A DNA stretch of 64,000 bases from Pseudomonadota bacterium (GTDB taxonomy: Bacteria > Pseudomonadota > Gammaproteobacteria > Burkholderiales > Thiobacillaceae), in contig JAKADY010000005.1 of the NCBI GenBank assembly GCA_021826065.1, forward strand, positions 1-64,000. Direction: 5' to 3'. Within the stretch, counting starts at the first letter, position 1, and each line of letters opens with the position of its first letter. Made by a program: the position numbers and the translations under genes. Of this stretch, positions 33,781-42,092 are shown one piece after another. Under the pieces are notes generated by a model. That model had not been told where the DNA came from. It saw only the letters and a program-made list of their open reading frames with translations, and did no database searches.

Positions 33781-33817
33781 CCGAGTAATTTCATCGGATA
33801 TTGTAGCGGAGGCCGAC

Positions 33818-34972
33818 ATGACCGAGATCGCAGCCGCACCGCCCCTGCCCCGCGCGGGCCAATCCCGGCGGCTGGATCTGGCCGCCCTGATCAACGCGGT
33901 CCAGCGCAACTGCGACATCTCCGACGCCCAGTATGCCGGGGACCTGACCCTGTGCACCTTCCTGCTCAAGATGCGCGAACTCTACCGCTGGGAGCACGAC
34001 ATCCCCTTGAGCGCCAACATGCCCAAGGGGGAGGTGGGCGACTGGATGAACGCCCGCAGCGCCCTGTGGGAGGGCATCGAGACCGACCCCTATGTGCCGC
34101 TGCCCCTGCCCTCGGGCGAGGTCGACCCCTTCGAGGTCGGCCGTGTGAACGCCGAGCTGCTGTCGCATGGCCTAGTGTACTCGGGCGGCTATGGGCGGCA
34201 GTGCAAACCGCACTTCTTCCTCGGCCAGCTCCTGCGCAGCGAGACGCGGCAGGGCCATCGGGTGCTGGTGTCCGGCTGCGAATACGCGCGCGACCTCGAC
34301 GCCCCGCCGGGGATGATGCTGGACGGCACCGTGTTCGTGCGCAGCGAGGCCCTCAAGCGCTGGTTGTGGGAGCGCTACGAGGAGTGGCGTTTCAATCCCA
34401 AGCGCAACGCGGCGATGGCGCGCGCACTGGCGTACTACCCGTTCGAACACGCGCCCGAGGCGGCGCTCAACGCCATGACGGCCAACGAGATCGAGGCCGT
34501 GATCCTGCACGAGCTGGGCGAGGCGCGGGTCGAGGCGGCGCTGGGCGAGGACTGGGGCACGCTGCTGTTGAGTGTGATGCGCAGCCGGGCAGAGATCATG
34601 GCCCGCGCCGTGCGCGACCTGTATGCCGACTGCCTGTCCACCCTGCCGGGGCTGATCGAGCGCGGCGAGCCGGCCAGTCTCCACTTCTTCTTCGCCAACT
34701 TCACCGGCATGCGGCGTAGCCTCGCACCGGCGCTGGCCGACGCCTACCAGCGCTGGGCGGCGGGCGGCGACCTCGGGGCCTTGAGCGCCGCCGCCGAGGC
34801 GGGGCTCGCACGCTGGGCGGAGACGGCGCAGTCGCTCCTGGCCCTCTACCGCGCCCACGGTGAGGCCGTCGGCCCGCAGATCGAGGCGCTTCTCGGAGGG
34901 GAGAAGACAGCGGACAGGGGACAGAGCACCAGCGCCTGCGCACCGGCGAGCGTAGGCAATCCCGAGCGCTGA
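33818..34972 (+). CDS. Conserved protein of unknown function
   Basis: A 384-residue soluble protein beginning MTEIAAAPPLP, with a conserved-looking stretch LINAVQRNCDISDAQYAGDLTLCTFLLKMRELYRWEHDIPL. It is acidic, helical in prediction by eye, and has no signal peptide or TM segment. It may belong to the Sfum_1244-type family of uncharacterised proteins, recalled from this N-terminal pattern, but I am not certain. The last 25 residues (from EKTADRGQST) look low-complexity and repeat-derived. A TATAAT box lies upstream. It is monocistronic between an EVE gene and the convergent pyruvate kinase gene. Confidence 0.7.
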   Translation: MTEIAAAPPLPRAGQSRRLDLAALINAVQRNCDISDAQYAGDLTLCTFLLKMRELYRWEHDIPLSANMPKGEVGDWMNARSALWEGIETDPYVPLPLPSGEVDPFEVGRVNAELLSHGLVYSGGYGRQCKPHFFLGQLLRSETRQGHRVLVSGCEYARDLDAPPGMMLDGTVFVRSEALKRWLWERYEEWRFNPKRNAAMARALAYYPFEHAPEAALNAMTANEIEAVILHELGEARVEAALGEDWGTLLLSVMRSRAEIMARAVRDLYADCLSTLPGLIERGEPASLHFFFANFTGMRRSLAPALADAYQRWAAGGDLGALSAAAEAGLARWAETAQSLLALYRAHGEAVGPQIEALLGGEKTADRGQSTSACAPASVGNPER

Positions 34973-35031: not shown

Positions 35032-36888
35032 TCAGTCCTCCGTCCTCAGTCTTCTGACCAACTGACCCAACATCGGCCGCTGCTTCCGGCGGTGCTCGCC
35101 CATGCGCTCGAGCAGTTCGGCGAGGAAGTCCACCGTCTCGACGATGTAGGGGCCTTTGTTCAACATCACGCACTCGGCGCGTACGCCGAAGGCGGCGTCG
35201 GAGACCTCGGCGCGCGAGGGCAGCCCACGCTTGGCCATGCCCTCCAACACCTGAGTGGCCCAGATGACCGGCACGTGCGCGGCCTCGGCGAGCCAGAGGA
35301 TCTCCTCCTGCACCTCGGCCAGGCGCTCGAAGCCCACCTCCACCGCCAGGTCGCCGCGCGCCACCATCAGGCCCACCGGCGGGTTGGCCAGGGCGGCGAG
35401 CAGGATCCCGGCCAGGTTGTCGAAGGCCTGCGGCGTCTCGATCTTGAGCACGGTGCCGACAGGGCCGGCCTCGAGTGCACGCAGGGCGGCATGCAGGGCC
35501 TGAACGTCCTCCGGCCCGCGCACGAAGGACAGCCCGACGATGTCGACATGCCCGGCCAGGGCGCGCAGGTCCTCCAGGTCCTTGGCCGTCAGGGCCGGCA
35601 CGTCCAGGCGGGTGTCCGGCAGATTGATGCCCTTCTCGGGCCGCAAGCGGCTGCCCTCGGGGGCTGCATGGGTGATCTCGACCACGATCTCGCGGCCGTC
35701 GTTGGCCAGGATGCGTCCGCCGATGCGACCGTCGTCGAACCACACGCGCTGGCCCGGCGCGGCGGCGTCGAACACCGCCGGCAGCGTACAGGGGATGCTG
35801 GCAGGCCGGGTGACCCGGCCGCTGGCGTCGGTGAGCGGGTGTTCGCCGGGCCGGTCATCGCCGGTGAGCAAGAGCCGGTCGCCCACCCTGAGGGTGAGCG
35901 GCTGGACCCGCTCGGGCAGGGGGCCCACCCGACCGGCGGCGAGCTGGGCGTCGCCCCGCCAGAGGATGCAAGCGGCGCCGTCGCGCAGATAGACATGGCG
36001 TTCGGCGTGCGCCAACCAGGCCTCGCCCTGGCGTTCGACGACCTGCAGGCGCCGGCGGCTGCCGCGGTTGTCCTCCAGCTCCAGTTGGTCGCCCGGGCGC
36101 ATGAGGGCGAGCAGTTCGGGGTCGAGCGGCAGCCGGACGCCGTCGCCGTCCGGCGGCAGCGCCGCGTGGCGCGGCGTGAGCCAGACACGCGCGGGTTGCA
36201 CCACACGCCCCCAGGCGTCGCGCTTGGGTTTAAAGTCGATCAGCCGGCCGACCGGGCGGATGTCCCCGGTGCGCAGCTTGGGGCCGGCGAGGTCGGCGTA
36301 GACGCGGCAGCGGCGGCCGCATTCCGCCTCCGCGGTGCGCAGGTTGCGGATCATGGCGAGCCAGGCCTCGGCGTCGTCATGCGCGCAGTTGATGCGCATG
36401 ACGTCCATGCCGGCCTCGAGCAGCCGACGGATCAGATCGGGGGCATGCGCCGCCTCGCTGGGCATGGTGACCATGATGCGGGTGGCGCGCCGGCCGGCCG
36501 GCTGACCCAGCAGCGCCCGGGCATGGGCATCGAGCTGCTGCGCCCCGTCGGCAATGCCGACCTGTCCCCGGCGCACACGGCGCGACGGCGGCTCGCGCCC
36601 GGCCAGGGCATAGAGCGCCCTCACCACGGCGTTGAGGCTAGCCAGGGTGTGCGCCTCGGCCCGCCCCAGCCGCGACAGGCCCAGCAGCGCCAGCTCGTTC
36701 TGCAGGTCGCGGATGTCGCTCTGGCGCACCGCGAGGTAGTGCAGGAGATTGCAGGCGCTCGGGCGGTGGTCCGGGTGCACGGCCTCGATCTCCCGCGCAT
36801 GCGCCTGCTCCACCGCCAGGGCGTGGCGGCGCAGGGCCTCCAGCGCGGGGATCAGCCGCTCGGCGCGGCGGCGGGTGGACAGGGACAT
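35032..36888 (-). CDS. Atypical pyruvate kinase with N-terminal extension
   Basis: A 618-residue protein. Residues 1 to about 134 are an extension unrelated to known pyruvate kinases. The core then shows MVTMPSEAAHAPDLIRRLLEAG, MDVMRINCAHD, ADLAGPKLRTG, VGLSFVRGPEDV, the catalytic KIE (VLKIETPQA), MVARGDLAVE and VIWATQVLEGMAKRGLPSRAEVSDAAFG. Catalytic K, E, D and T positions are kept. The protein ends soon after VMLNKGPYIVETVDFLAELL and so lacks the usual C-terminal regulatory domain. It may be a pyruvate kinase with different control, or a related kinase; it is not the canonical PykA/PykF type. Confidence 0.8.
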   Translation of the reverse strand: MSLSTRRRAERLIPALEALRRHALAVEQAHAREIEAVHPDHRPSACNLLHYLAVRQSDIRDLQNELALLGLSRLGRAEAHTLASLNAVVRALYALAGREPPSRRVRRGQVGIADGAQQLDAHARALLGQPAGRRATRIMVTMPSEAAHAPDLIRRLLEAGMDVMRINCAHDDAEAWLAMIRNLRTAEAECGRRCRVYADLAGPKLRTGDIRPVGRLIDFKPKRDAWGRVVQPARVWLTPRHAALPPDGDGVRLPLDPELLALMRPGDQLELEDNRGSRRRLQVVERQGEAWLAHAERHVYLRDGAACILWRGDAQLAAGRVGPLPERVQPLTLRVGDRLLLTGDDRPGEHPLTDASGRVTRPASIPCTLPAVFDAAAPGQRVWFDDGRIGGRILANDGREIVVEITHAAPEGSRLRPEKGINLPDTRLDVPALTAKDLEDLRALAGHVDIVGLSFVRGPEDVQALHAALRALEAGPVGTVLKIETPQAFDNLAGILLAALANPPVGLMVARGDLAVEVGFERLAEVQEEILWLAEAAHVPVIWATQVLEGMAKRGLPSRAEVSDAAFGVRAECVMLNKGPYIVETVDFLAELLERMGEHRRKQRPMLGQLVRRLRTED

Positions 36889-36933: not shown

Positions 36934-38331
36934 TTACGCCGACTTTGCCGCCGACCGCCTTGCCCGCGCCGCCAGCCAGACCAGAAGCAGCACCGGCAAG
37001 CCGATCAGCGCCGTGCCGGTGAAGAAGAACGCATAGCCGTGCGCATCCACCACCACGCCGGAGAAGCCGGCGATGAACTTGGGCAGGAGCAGCATCACCG
37101 AGCTGAACAGGGCGTATTGGGTGGCCGAATAGGCGACATTGGTGAGGCCGGAGAGATAGGCCACGAAGGCCGAGGAGGCAATGCCGGCGGAGAGGTTGTC
37201 GGCCGAGACCACGAAGACGAGGCCGGTGACGTCGTGGCCGCGGCCGGCCAGCCAGACGAAGAGGAGGTTGGTGGCGGCCGACAGCAGCGCCCCCAGGAAC
37301 AGGGTCTTCATCACCCCCCAGCGGGCGGTCAGCAGCCCGCCGATGGCGGCCCCGACGATGGTCATGATCACCCCATAGACCTTGGCCACCGTGGCCACCT
37401 CGTCCTTGGTGTAGCCCATGTCCACATAGAACGGGTTGGCCATGATGCCCATCACCACGTCGGAGATGCGGTAGGTGGCGATCAACGCCAGCACCAGCAG
37501 GGCCTGCCAGCGGTAGCGGCGGACGAAGTCGATGAAGGGCGACAGCACCGCCCCGTGCAGCCAGGCCGCAAGCTTGAGCCACACCCCCTGTAAGCCCTGG
37601 TCGGCAAGCCAGACGCGCGCCCTTTCCTCGCGCGCCAGGGTCTCGGCGAGGAGCGCCGCACGCGCAGCGTCCACCCTGGGCTCGCGCACGATCAGGGTGG
37701 TAAGGATGCCGACCCCCATCAGCGCCGCCATCACCGTATAGGCGATGCGCCAGGGGGCGTGCTCATAGGTGGCCTCGGACGGGTCGAAGACGGCGGCGAT
37801 CCACAGCACGCCGGCGCCGGCGGTGATCATGGCCACGCGGTAGCCGGCCTGGTAGGTTGCGGCCATCGCCCCCTGCAGCCGCACCTCCACCGCCTCGATG
37901 CGGTAGGCGTCCAGCGCGATGTCCTGGGTGGCCGAGGCGAAGGCCACGGCCAGGGCAAACCAGGCCATGTGGCTCAAGCTCTGCGTCGGGTCGGTGTGCG
38001 CCATGCCCAGGAGCGCCAGGGCGATGGTCACCTGCGAGGCGAGCAGCCAGGCGCGCCGGCGGCCCAGCACGCGGCTCAATACCGGCAGCGGCAGCCGGTC
38101 GACCAGCGGCGACCAGGCCCACTTGATGCCATAGGCCAGCCCCACCCAGGAGAAATAGCCGATGGTGGTGCGGTCCACCCCCGCCTCCCGGAGCCAGAAG
38201 GAGAGCGTACCCAGCACCAGCAGCAGCGGCAGCCCGGCGGAGAAGCCGAGGAAGAGCATGCCCAGCACGCGCGGGTGGGCGTAGATGGCCAGGCCGCCGA
38301 GACGGCCGCTGGGGGACTCGGGTCCGCTCAC
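36934..38331 (-). CDS. AmpG-like MFS permease
   Basis: A 465-residue major-facilitator protein with 12 predicted TM helices. It begins (GTG at 38331) SGPESPSGRLGGLAIYAHPRVLGMLFLGFSAGLPLLLV, typical of AmpG, which imports anhydro-muropeptides for cell-wall recycling. YFSWVGLAYGIKWAWSPLVDRLPLP and ATQDIALDAYRIEAV are AmpG-family signatures. Its start overlaps the xth stop (GTGA). Substrate assignment rests on family resemblance; other AmpG-like permeases carry other substrates. Confidence 0.82.
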   Translation of the reverse strand: MSGPESPSGRLGGLAIYAHPRVLGMLFLGFSAGLPLLLVLGTLSFWLREAGVDRTTIGYFSWVGLAYGIKWAWSPLVDRLPLPVLSRVLGRRRAWLLASQVTIALALLGMAHTDPTQSLSHMAWFALAVAFASATQDIALDAYRIEAVEVRLQGAMAATYQAGYRVAMITAGAGVLWIAAVFDPSEATYEHAPWRIAYTVMAALMGVGILTTLIVREPRVDAARAALLAETLAREERARVWLADQGLQGVWLKLAAWLHGAVLSPFIDFVRRYRWQALLVLALIATYRISDVVMGIMANPFYVDMGYTKDEVATVAKVYGVIMTIVGAAIGGLLTARWGVMKTLFLGALLSAATNLLFVWLAGRGHDVTGLVFVVSADNLSAGIASSAFVAYLSGLTNVAYSATQYALFSSVMLLLPKFIAGFSGVVVDAHGYAFFFTGTALIGLPVLLLVWLAARARRSAAKSA

Positions 38332-39107
38332 AGGTTGTAGTCGTAGTCGATGGTCAGCGGCGCATGGTCGCTGAAACGCTCGGCCTTGTAGATGCGGGCC
38401 TCGAGGGCCTTGGCGGCGATGCCGGGGGTGGCGATCTGGTAGTCGATGCGCCAGCCGACGTTCTTGGCCCAGGCCTGGCCGCGGTTGGACCACCAAGTGT
38501 AGCCCTCCTCGGTGGCGTCGGGGTATAGGCGGCGGTAGACGTCGACGAAGCCCAGCTCCGAGAACACCCGGCCGATCCAGGCGCGCTCCTCGGGCAGGAA
38601 GCCGGAGTTCTTCTGGTTGGAGCGCCAGTTCTTGAGGTCCTTCTCGGTGTGGGCGATGTTCCAGTCGCCGCAGAGGATGACCTCGTGGCCGGCCTGTGCC
38701 AGCCGAGCGAGATGGGGGTAGAAATGCTCCATGAAGGCGAACTTGGCCGCCTGCCTGTGCTCGCCGGCGGAGCCCGAGGGCAGGTAGACGGAGACGATGG
38801 CGAGCCGGCCGAACTGAACCTCAAGATAACGGCCTTCCGCGTCGATATCCGGTATGCCCAGGCCCTCGATGATCCGGTCCGGCTGACGCCGGCAGTAGAT
38901 GCCCACGCCGCTGTAGCCCTTCTTCTCGGCATAGTGGAAATAGCCGTAATAGCCCGGCGGATTGAGCATTTGCGCCGTCATGTCGGCGACCTGTGCCTTG
39001 AGCTCCTGCAGGCAGACGACATCGGCCGCCTCGCGCGGCAGCCAGTCGTAAAAGCCCTTGCTGGCCGCCGAACGGAGGCCGTTGACGTTGAGGGTTACAA
39101 TGCGCAT
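38328..39107 (-). CDS. xth: Exodeoxyribonuclease III
   Basis: A 259-residue AP endonuclease/3'-exonuclease of base-excision repair. Active-site motifs are MRIVTLNVNGLRSA, the metal-binding glutamate in CLQELKAQ, CGDWNIAHTEKDLKNW, WRIDYQI and SDHAPL. The start is the ATG at 39107, where family sequence begins; the frame continues upstream through the pyrE start but is not family-like. Only 18 bp separate it from divergent pyrE. Confidence 0.95.
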   Translation of the reverse strand: MRIVTLNVNGLRSAASKGFYDWLPREAADVVCLQELKAQVADMTAQMLNPPGYYGYFHYAEKKGYSGVGIYCRRQPDRIIEGLGIPDIDAEGRYLEVQFGRLAIVSVYLPSGSAGEHRQAAKFAFMEHFYPHLARLAQAGHEVILCGDWNIAHTEKDLKNWRSNQKNSGFLPEERAWIGRVFSELGFVDVYRRLYPDATEEGYTWWSNRGQAWAKNVGWRIDYQIATPGIAAKALEARIYKAERFSDHAPLTIDYDYNL

Positions 39108-39767: not shown

Positions 39768-40395
39768 GCGGGCGTCGAGCCGCTGCCCCGGGCGGACAGC
39801 CGCCGCCCTGGTCCTTGGCCTGCTCTTCGCCCTGCCGGGCTGGGCGCAGACCTACCGCTGGGTCGATGAACGCGGCCGGGTCTATTACAGCGACAAGCCG
39901 CCCTTGCATGCCGCCGAGCCGGACGTGCTCGACCGGCAGGGGCGGTTGCTGCGCAAGGCCAGGCCGGCGACGCCGACGGCCAACGTCGGCGGACGCGACC
40001 TCGCGCGCGAGCGCCAGGACCGGGCGCTGCTGTCGACCTATGTGCACGAGGCCGAGATTGATCTCGCCCGTGAGCGCGCTCTGGCGCAGGAGCGGGCCAA
40101 ACAGGAGAGCCTGGAGGCGCTGCTGGAGCAGGCCCGGGCGCGCAAGGCCCGCCTCGAGGGCGAGGCCGCCGCCCACCGCCAGGCCGGGCGCACGCCGCCG
40201 GCGGGCCTGAGCCAAGCGCTCGCCGAGAGCGAGCGCGAGTTCGCCCGCCTGGCGCAGCTGCACGCACGCAGCGAAAACGCCATGCGCGAGATCGAAATGC
40301 GCTATGAGGGCTACAAGCGGCGCTTTCGCGAGCTCAAAGGCCTGCCCGCCGAGGCGGCCCGCACCACGGCGCCGGCCACGAACGGCACGCCCTAG
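39754..40395 (+). CDS. DUF4124-domain periplasmic protein
   Basis: A 213-residue protein with a signal peptide ([18 protein letters not shown]) and an N-terminal DUF4124 segment [18 protein letters not shown]. The rest is charged and helical ([34 protein letters not shown]), likely a coiled coil. DUF4124 is a short beta module in many periplasmic proteins of this group; its role is unknown. The ATG at 39754 lies inside the 3' end of pyrE, suggesting coupled translation. Confidence 0.8.
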
Positions 40396-42092
40396 CCGGT
40401 CTTGGCCGCCGCGAGCGGCTGTGGGCGGTGCAGGCCGTAACCCTGGGCGTAATCCACCCCCAACCGGGTCAGCTCCGACACGATGGCGGCATCCTCGACG
40501 AACTCGGCCACGGTCTTGAGGCCTACGGTGTGGCCGATGCGGTGGATGGCCTCGACGATCGCGCGGTCCATGGGGTCGCGGGTGATGTCGCGCACGAAGG
40601 CGCCGTCGATCTTGAGGTAATCCACTGGCAGGGTCTTGAGATAGGTGAAGGAACTCAGCCCCGAGCCGAAGTCGTCCAGGGCGAAGCGGCAACCCTCGGC
40701 GCGGATGGCGTGGATGAAGTCGAGGGCGCGGCTCAGGTTGGCGATGGCGGCGGTCTCGGTGATCTCAAAGCAGAGCAGCGCGGCGGTCTGGCCGGTGTCG
40801 CGCAACAGCTCGCGCAGGTAGGCGTCGAAGCCGGTGTCGTTGAGGGTCGCCCCCGACAGGTTGACGAAGAAGCTGGGGGCACCGCTAGCGGCGGCGTCCG
40901 GATGGCGGGCGACGTGTTCGAGCAAGCGGCGCACCACCCAGCGGTCCAGAGCGGGGGCCACGTTGTAGCGCTCGGCCGCCGGCAGGAAGGCGCCCGGGCC
41001 GATCAGCGTGCCCGACTCGTCGCGCAGGCGCAGGAGGATCTCGCGGAAGGCGGGCTGGGGCGTGTGGCCGAGGGCATCGATCCGCTGCCAGTGCAGCTCG
41101 AAGCGGTCCTGCTCCAGGGCGGCATTGATGCGGGCGACCCAGTGCATCTCGCCCTGGCGGCGGGCGAGCTCGACGTCGTCCTCCTGGAACAGGTGGATGC
41201 GGTTGCGGCCGAGGTCCTTGGCGGCATAGCAGGCCACGTCGGCGCGCCCCATGAGGTCGGCCAGGGTGCCACTCGCCCGGTTGATCGGCACCAGGCCGAT
41301 GCTGCCGCCGATGGCGAAGGTCTTGCCCAGCCAGCTGAAACGGAAGTCGTTGAGGGCGGCGAGCACCTGGGCGGCGATGTGCTGCGCGCGGTCGAGCGGG
41401 CAGTTTTCGAGCAGGATGCCGAATTCGTCGCCGCCCAGGCGGGCGACGGTGTCGCTGTCGCGCACCTGGGCGTGCAACAGCAGGGCCACTTGCTTGAGCA
41501 GCTCGTCGCCGGCGACATGGCCGCAGGTGTCGTTGACCACCTTGAACTGGTCCAGATCGAGGTAGAGCAGGGCGTGGTGGGTATCCAGCTCGCGCGACTC
41601 ATCGAGCGCCTCGGCCAGCTTGCGCTCGAACTGCGCCCGGTTGGTGAGTCCGGTCAGCGGGTCGTGGTAGGCCAGGTGACGGATGGTCGCCTCCGCCTGG
41701 CGGTGGGCACGGCGCACCGCGGCGTCGCGGACCTCGCGCTCGATGGCCGGCACCAGGCGGGCGAGGTTGTCCTTCATGATGTAGTCGGCCGCCCCCGCCT
41801 TCATGGCGGCCACCGCCACATCCTCGCCGATGGTGCCGGAGAGGATGATCACCGGCACGTCCGAACCGGTCTGGCGCACCAGGTCGAGCGCCGCCTCCGA
41901 GCTGAAGCCGGGCAGGTTGTGGTCGGTGATGACCACGTCCCAATCGGGCTCGGCCAGGGCCTGGGTCAGCTGGGCCGCGCTGTCGACCCGATGCAGCATC
42001 GGCCGGTAGCCGTGACGCCTGAGCTCGCGCTCGAGCAGCAGGGCGTCGTCCTCCGAGTCCTCCACCAACAGGACGCGCAGGACCTTGCTCAT
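40392..42092 (-). CDS. Response regulator with GGDEF and EAL domains
   Basis: A 566-residue three-domain protein: REC (1 to about 120, VLLVEDSEDDALLLERELRRHG, phosphoacceptor in WDVVITDHNLPG), GGDEF (about 155-315, motif LGGDEFGILLEN intact) and EAL (about 325-560). The EAL signature reads EIL (FREILLRL), but the catalytic set remains: N in FFVNLSG, E in CFEITET, DDFGSG, K in YLKIDG, E in AEFVE and Q in YAQGYG. It could both make and degrade c-di-GMP. It is last in an operon after a CheY-like regulator, a large PAS kinase and a PhnD-like protein. Confidence 0.92.
   Translation of the reverse strand: MSKVLRVLLVEDSEDDALLLERELRRHGYRPMLHRVDSAAQLTQALAEPDWDVVITDHNLPGFSSEAALDLVRQTGSDVPVIILSGTIGEDVAVAAMKAGAADYIMKDNLARLVPAIEREVRDAAVRRAHRQAEATIRHLAYHDPLTGLTNRAQFERKLAEALDESRELDTHHALLYLDLDQFKVVNDTCGHVAGDELLKQVALLLHAQVRDSDTVARLGGDEFGILLENCPLDRAQHIAAQVLAALNDFRFSWLGKTFAIGGSIGLVPINRASGTLADLMGRADVACYAAKDLGRNRIHLFQEDDVELARRQGEMHWVARINAALEQDRFELHWQRIDALGHTPQPAFREILLRLRDESGTLIGPGAFLPAAERYNVAPALDRWVVRRLLEHVARHPDAAASGAPSFFVNLSGATLNDTGFDAYLRELLRDTGQTAALLCFEITETAAIANLSRALDFIHAIRAEGCRFALDDFGSGLSSFTYLKTLPVDYLKIDGAFVRDITRDPMDRAIVEAIHRIGHTVGLKTVAEFVEDAAIVSELTRLGVDYAQGYGLHRPQPLAAAKTG

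Follow-up and report, generated by a model that had tools for sequence, protein, structure and literature searches.

The closest described relative of the protein analysed here is Pyk2 (NCgl2809) of Corynebacterium glutamicum. According to its published characterization (PMC5112673), Pyk2 carries an N-terminal extension of 120 amino acids, has its barrel in two parts (residues 128-213 and 346-606) and is without a C domain. It is a pyruvate kinase using PEP and ADP, runs as a homohexamer in gel filtration, is inhibited by ATP, and on ribose complements the deletion of pyk1 alone as well as that of both pyk genes (PMC5112673). Its S0.5 for PEP decreases from 4.58 mM to 2.17 mM in the presence of FBP, and its kcat is 5.58 per s (PMC5112673). 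The FBP site of other FBP-activated pyruvate kinases is located in the C domain, and for Pyk2, which is activated by FBP despite lacking this domain, a distinct mechanism of allostery was inferred in the same study (PMC5112673). Within the family, Pyk2 is the one member for which we found a measurement of activity with PEP and ADP (PMC5112673).

The window, that is the whole stretch of 64,000 nucleotides that was analysed, carries at 35032-36888 on the reverse strand an open reading frame of 618 aa with an ATG start. Over residues 5-610 the encoded protein matches NF011314 (PRK14725.1, 'pyruvate kinase'), an equivalog model of NCBIfam, scoring 785.8 bits where the cut-off is 642; the match covers the full length, no difference to the model was found, and chance is excluded as its source. 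The layout of the NF011314/PRK14725 family, with an N-domain, a split barrel, a long lid region and no C domain, is also that of the window protein, and Pfam finds its barrel as two pieces. In NCBIfam it also matched six models of ordinary pyruvate kinases, and it stays below the cut-off of each, with 206.9 bits for PRK05826 (cut-off 432), 142.1 bits for PRK09206 (cut-off 686) and 219.5 bits for TIGR01064 (cut-off 306.4). Extension, split barrel and lack of a C domain are likewise the features of Pyk2, which was compared by its description (PMC5112673). A stand-in for Pyk2 at the level of sequence is the Corynebacterium-type locus L182, which scores 839 bits to NF011314, has the same motifs as the window protein and resembles the pyk2 locus by an adjoining ldhA-like gene. 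We therefore consider it highly probable that the window protein belongs to the PRK14725 (Pyk2) family and is the second pyruvate kinase of its genome, most likely with ordinary PEP to ADP chemistry and with probable changes in its control and cation site. For this protein we infer activity with PEP and ADP, roles for the N-domain and an extra lid, and independence of K+.

An AlphaFold2 model of the window protein, built on an alignment of 46 rows (the window and 45 of the best 80 loci), reached a pLDDT of 90.5 and a pTM of 0.83. In structure comparison the part of it from residue 132 to about residue 604-608 resembles solved pyruvate kinases, with a best Z of 35.5 (rmsd 2.3 over 332 residues, 1.7 over 315). 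Since the pyruvate kinase fold begins at residue 132-133, the long N-terminal extension pointed out in the initial annotation is present, with a length of about 131 residues and not about 134. It corresponds to positions 36496..36888 (reverse strand), is supported by alignments and appears helical in the models. Of the A-domain barrel, the first part (residues 132-209; 36262..36495, reverse strand) contains RINCAHD (165-171) and DLAGPKLRTG (199-208), and the second part (residues 426-605; 35074..35613, reverse strand), delimited by alignments and model, holds K482, E484, D513, T545 and LNKGPY (576-581). Following the barrel the model has one helix and a short tail, and nothing more; this last helix (582-616) reaches the point where a C domain would begin. 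Family-wide, the tail after NKGP has a median of 38 residues (range 32-108; 120 of 128 members read), against a median of 158 (range 153-175; 22 of 48 read) after MLSGETA in ordinary kinases. Model, structure comparison and tail lengths agree that the C-terminal effector domain of ordinary PykA/PykF is absent, as had been claimed from the sequence; the structure prediction suggested at that stage as a check yields a pyruvate kinase barrel from residue 132 behind a helical N-domain.

The N-domain is conserved across the 25 members aligned, with a core of S44-A45-x-N47...Y51...R55...Q63...G70...E78 in two alignments. When modelled alone it gave a pLDDT of 82.7. A Foldseek search with this model returned 81 matches at E ≤10 and none at E ≤0.001, and the best structural Z of 6.3 (rmsd 3.5, 81 aligned) is in the chance range for helical bundles.

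In an alignment with PykF and PykA of E. coli and with the ordinary kinase of the same genome, K482, E484, D513 and T545 of the window protein fall on K220, E222, D246 and T278 of PykF, R165, N167 and H170 on R32, N34 and H37, D199 on D66, and the lid lysine of the KGIN motif, K419, on K156. The residue set of pyruvate kinase (EC 2.7.1.40), namely the catalytic K, E, D and T with the R, N and H on the ADP/PEP side, is present. K482, E484, D513 and T545 are invariant in 46/46 rows, and H170 and K419 belong to the nearly invariant class (90% or more) of the same alignment. The roles of the four catalytic residues and of the KGIN lysine are textbook assignments, transferred here by alignment. Phosphate would accordingly pass from PEP to ADP by ordinary chemistry: K482 would act as K220 does in PykF, the divalent metal would be bound by E484 and D513, T545 would take part in the transfer of the proton, and the KGIN lysine, located in the second lid, would act on the nucleotide. 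The E. coli enzymes PykF and PykA (PRK09206, PRK05826) share barrel, ordinary lid and catalytic residues with the window protein, but have a C-terminal effector domain, a single lid, RxNFSHG, a longer loop at the end of the barrel and no N-domain.

The initial annotation had noted that the catalytic K, E, D and T are kept, that RINCAHD replaces RxNFSHG and that the end of the barrel is divergent, and the alignment to PykF bears out all three: the four residues coincide with their counterparts, RINCAHD (165-171) stands where ordinary enzymes have RxNFSHG, and VMLNKGPY stands in place of VMLSGESAKGKYP, in a loop that is 4 residues shorter, with 2 more residues lost just before it. Its reading of these deviations as an individual oddity was mistaken, since every one of them is a mark of the widespread NF011314/PRK14725 family. 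In a set of 128 distinct long members, the window included, to which 48 ordinary kinases were compared, the Ala of the RINCAH-type motif is found in 128/128 (127 by pattern, and L111). The shortened LNKGP loop is found in 120/128 by a simple pattern, K578-G579 is invariant in the 46 aligned rows, and strict patterns recover ARGDL in 128/128, ATQ in 121/128 and KxE in 113/128, some rows being cut. These motifs are family-wide, and a changed function specific to the window protein is therefore rejected. One member, L111, reads RINCARD, with Arg at window position 170 (PykF H37) where the other 127 have His, and so departs from the family at a position expected to belong to the active site. Two relatives, L019 and L101, are each split over two reading frames, by assembly frameshift or decay.

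The lid (B) domain appears to be duplicated in tandem in the window protein, at residues ~209-325 and ~325-425, since profile comparison, length of the stretch and topology of the model agree. The putative extra copy, B1 (35914..36264, reverse strand), would lie in sequence between the barrel and the true lid, B2 (35614..35916, reverse strand), which contains FDDG (384-387) and KGIN (419-422) and is recognized by its profile matches to other lids. The stretch from DLAGPK to KGIN, which holds the lid, has a median of 225 residues (range 210-254) in the 118 of 128 long members that could be read, compared with 92-99 in ordinary kinases (21/48 read; 92-108 in 40/48 with a looser end mark) and 99-112 in five of six single-lid cousins (L033 unread). 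A profile of B1 (205-325) aligned to one of B2 (322-430) by hhalign with a score of 35.25, an E of 8.2e-6 and a probability of 83.6%, in a match that spans 42 columns only, at 38% identity. Twenty controls with permuted columns of B1 scored 7.8-16.2, and control blocks from the N-domain and barrel scored 9.6-17.8, the top one, residues 1-120 against B2, being slightly over the permuted controls; a further control, residues 135-215 against B1, scored 30.2 and is uninformative, as it overlaps B1 by 11 residues. B2 matches the lids of ordinary pyruvate kinases (21 lids) at E 2.3e-17 and those of the single-lid cousins at E 8.4e-26, and B1 compared directly with the ordinary lid gives a weak match (E 0.0012, probability 19.6%). 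In the AlphaFold2 model a strand-helix-strand order repeats in both halves, as compared by order and not by superposition. The initial annotation, made from the sequence, mentions neither the length of this stretch nor the apparent duplication. The description of the region between the barrel halves of Pyk2 names no second lid in the sections available to us (PMC5112673), and no report of the lid duplication was found in searches of the open-access literature. The feature is real and of a kind already known, the Pyk2 family, and the tandem lid is the part that this literature did not yield.

The extra lid and the shortened loop at the end of the barrel could also be taken to mean that this is a pyruvate kinase-like enzyme with a changed phosphoryl acceptor or donor, or one that serves as a regulator, in which the second lid and loop 576-581 form a different pocket. 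The presence of an ordinary pyruvate kinase in the genome and the poor affinity of the tested relative Pyk2 for PEP (PMC5112673) would fit such an enzyme. We regard it as improbable, since the window protein retains every catalytic and metal residue as well as the lid lysine, and Pyk2 complements pyk deletions and turns over PEP and ADP (PMC5112673). The different phosphoryl acceptor that had been suggested from the sequence is unsupported for the same reason, the residues on the nucleotide and PEP side and lid K419 being in place. Nevertheless, because the reported S0.5 of Pyk2 for PEP is high at 4.58 mM, with a kcat of 5.58 per s (PMC5112673), Pyk2 might catalyse a further reaction, or one to which it is better suited, beside that with PEP and ADP.

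The host genome (2.74 Mb, 74 contigs) encodes one further pyruvate kinase, on contig G000:C71, and this is of the ordinary type, with 655 bits to PRK05826 (cut-off 432) and 392.7 bits to the Pfam barrel. An ordinary-type frame (485 aa, with RINMSH and DLSGPKIRTG) was also observed at L130, on a contig of an Acidobacteriota MAG, where it lies on the opposite strand to a double-lid kinase within one 7.3-kb locus. The family is over its cut-off in 14/41 genomes of relatives and in 8/398 genomes phylum-wide, the own genome included in both counts, and around an actinobacterial relative in 8/101 genomes of the order and 58/401 of the family. Of 596 candidate stretches in named genomes, at least 561 code for a relative. 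The loci compared are the best 80 of these at least 561, and their titles, which can err for metagenomes, name Thiobacillaceae, Gallionellaceae, Chromatiaceae, Chloroflexi, Pontibacter and Acidobacteriota, so by record title the same architecture occurs in several phyla. C. glutamicum and Deinobacterium chartae both match at E ≤1e-100, and one or the other of them passes the cut-off. The patchy spread (14 of 41 genomes) and the frame-split relatives would be compatible with a pseudogene or a non-expressed relic beside the ordinary enzyme, and yet the window gene is an intact frame of 618 aa with the invariant residues of its family and 81% identity over 613 columns to the kinase of its nearest relative, L051, which makes decay very unlikely.

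Six cousins with a single lid (L029-L034, 502-604 aa) share the N-domain, Lys117 and the lack of a C domain with the window protein, as well as the Ala of the RINCAH-type motif (RINTAH in L034), but have one lid instead of two. L029, L031 and L032 score 530-542 bits to NF011314, under the cut-off of 642, and pass no NCBIfam pyruvate kinase cut-off. A maximum-likelihood tree was made from the barrel without lids for 55 rows, comprising 31 long, 5 single-lid and 19 ordinary sequences. Long rows were sampled every fourth (32/128) with L182 added, a few then being unread by pattern, and the window is present twice among the 31 under two names; 29/48 ordinary and 3/8 'short' rows (two split long copies, one unread) were left out, and the root was taken between the N-domain family and the ordinary kinases. 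These two are split with 100/100 support. The long form is one clade (99/98) with L182 inside, and joins three single-lid cousins at 95/93, the other two single-lid rows falling outside; only 2% of 200 bootstrap trees unite all single-lid rows. Since the long clade nests among N-domain cousins with a single lid, the tree, with its five single-lid rows only, suggests that the N-domain came first and was followed by a single duplication of the lid. A phylogeny against PykA/PykF had been proposed with the initial annotation, and by the 100/100 split and the failed cut-offs there is no close relation. The shared barrel fold and catalytic residues might point to an enzyme of the ordinary PykA/PykF type which in this genome has merely been deprived of its C domain and has acquired an arbitrary extension, but this is refuted for practical purposes by six missed ordinary cut-offs, by the separate family in the tree, and by an N-domain conserved in 25 aligned members of an architecture found in several phyla by title.

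The rabbit enzyme binds K+ through S76, N74, D112 and the carbonyl of T113 (PMC4284704). Enzymes with Lys117 are described as K+-independent, with Leu113 in their signature and Gln114 and Leu/Ile/Val120 in 77% (PMC8835810). The window protein has Lys and Leu at the corresponding K204 and L200 in common with these enzymes, but differs from them by Ala (A201) instead of Gln114, Thr (T207) instead of Leu/Ile/Val120, and the loss of Ser76 (PMC8835810, PMC4284704). The combination of Lys117 with Ala at the K+-ligand position Ser76 marks the family: Lys117 is found in 127/128 members (L017 unread), and Lys117 with Ala76 in 34 loci of the actinobacterial draw, L182 included. Ordinary kinases keep Ser76 in all that were read (45/48), and have Lys117 in 38/48 and Glu117 in 10/48. 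The active site of the family is thus predicted from sequence to be K+-independent, since Lys117 would take the place of the cation and the Ser76 ligand is Ala. Contrary to this prediction, Pyk2 is reported to have an absolute need of Mn2+ and a monovalent cation (PMC5112673). Relative to K+, however, its activity is 73% with NH4+, 51% with Na+ and 38% with Li+ (PMC5112673), as against 8% with Na+ and 2% with Li+ in the rabbit enzyme (PMC4284704), and because this selectivity is weak, the cation need of Pyk2 suggests a general salt effect rather than a K+ site.

Upstream of the kinase gene, on the same strand and after a gap of 45 bases, lies an MFS permease frame (36934..38496, reverse strand; Pfam PF07690), which we take to be AmpG-like. 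As this frame overlaps the next gene, the true start of the permease is probably lower than 38496, and permease and kinase are possibly co-transcribed. Beyond the permease Pfam finds a protein of the endonuclease/exonuclease/phosphatase family and then a phosphoribosyltransferase, and the domain scan a response regulator with GGDEF and EAL domains at 40392-42092 (reverse strand). Downstream and convergent with the kinase, at 33794-34972 on the forward strand, is a gene with the N and C domains of DUF6866, two Pfam families of unknown function, and past it an EVE-domain protein. When neighbouring frames of the best 80 loci and the window were clustered, some loci having short flanks, L051 shared its surroundings with the window on both sides, L052 shared the side of permease and exonuclease, and one further cluster at the window edge joined L051, L056 and L057; the permease was common to L051 and L052 among the 80. 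At the other loci only the kinase and its shadow frames were common to the window. A conserved operon or functional partner is rejected for the 80 loci and the window, since the neighbours are essentially shared with L051 and L052 and none was seen beyond close relatives. While the pyk2 gene adjoins ldhA (PMC5112673), the window kinase has no ldhA among the neighbours scanned. An ldhA-like gene of at least 69% identity is present at six loci (L182, the source of the query, L193, L195, L198, L199 and L202), all from the actinobacterial draw with ~1.5 kb of flank on each side, and L183 and L090 gave weak matches.

As to regulation, the different control proposed in the initial annotation is plausible, with a precedent in Pyk2, which is activated by FBP without a C domain (PMC5112673); it is the alternative of a different acceptor that is unsupported. 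For the second pyruvate kinase of the PRK14725 family that we believe this protein to be, control and assembly would probably be mediated by the conserved N-terminal helical domain, the extra lid or both. One may speculate further, and tentatively, that the long members form a class of their own among pyruvate kinases, in which the C domain was swapped for the N-domain and the lid was afterwards doubled once, in which the extra lid relays an effector signal (that of FBP in Pyk2) from the N-domain to closure of the lid, and from which the cation site is gone. If this were true, both allostery and catalysis would work through parts unused in any other pyruvate kinase.

Among allosteric enzymes, pyruvate kinase is a textbook case. 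Because this family is without the C domain and has one member reported to respond to FBP, the location of the FBP binding site becomes a directly testable question, and the second lid copy and the missing K+ ligand offer concrete targets for mutation. The answer would apply widely, since the family is found, by record title, in several phyla.
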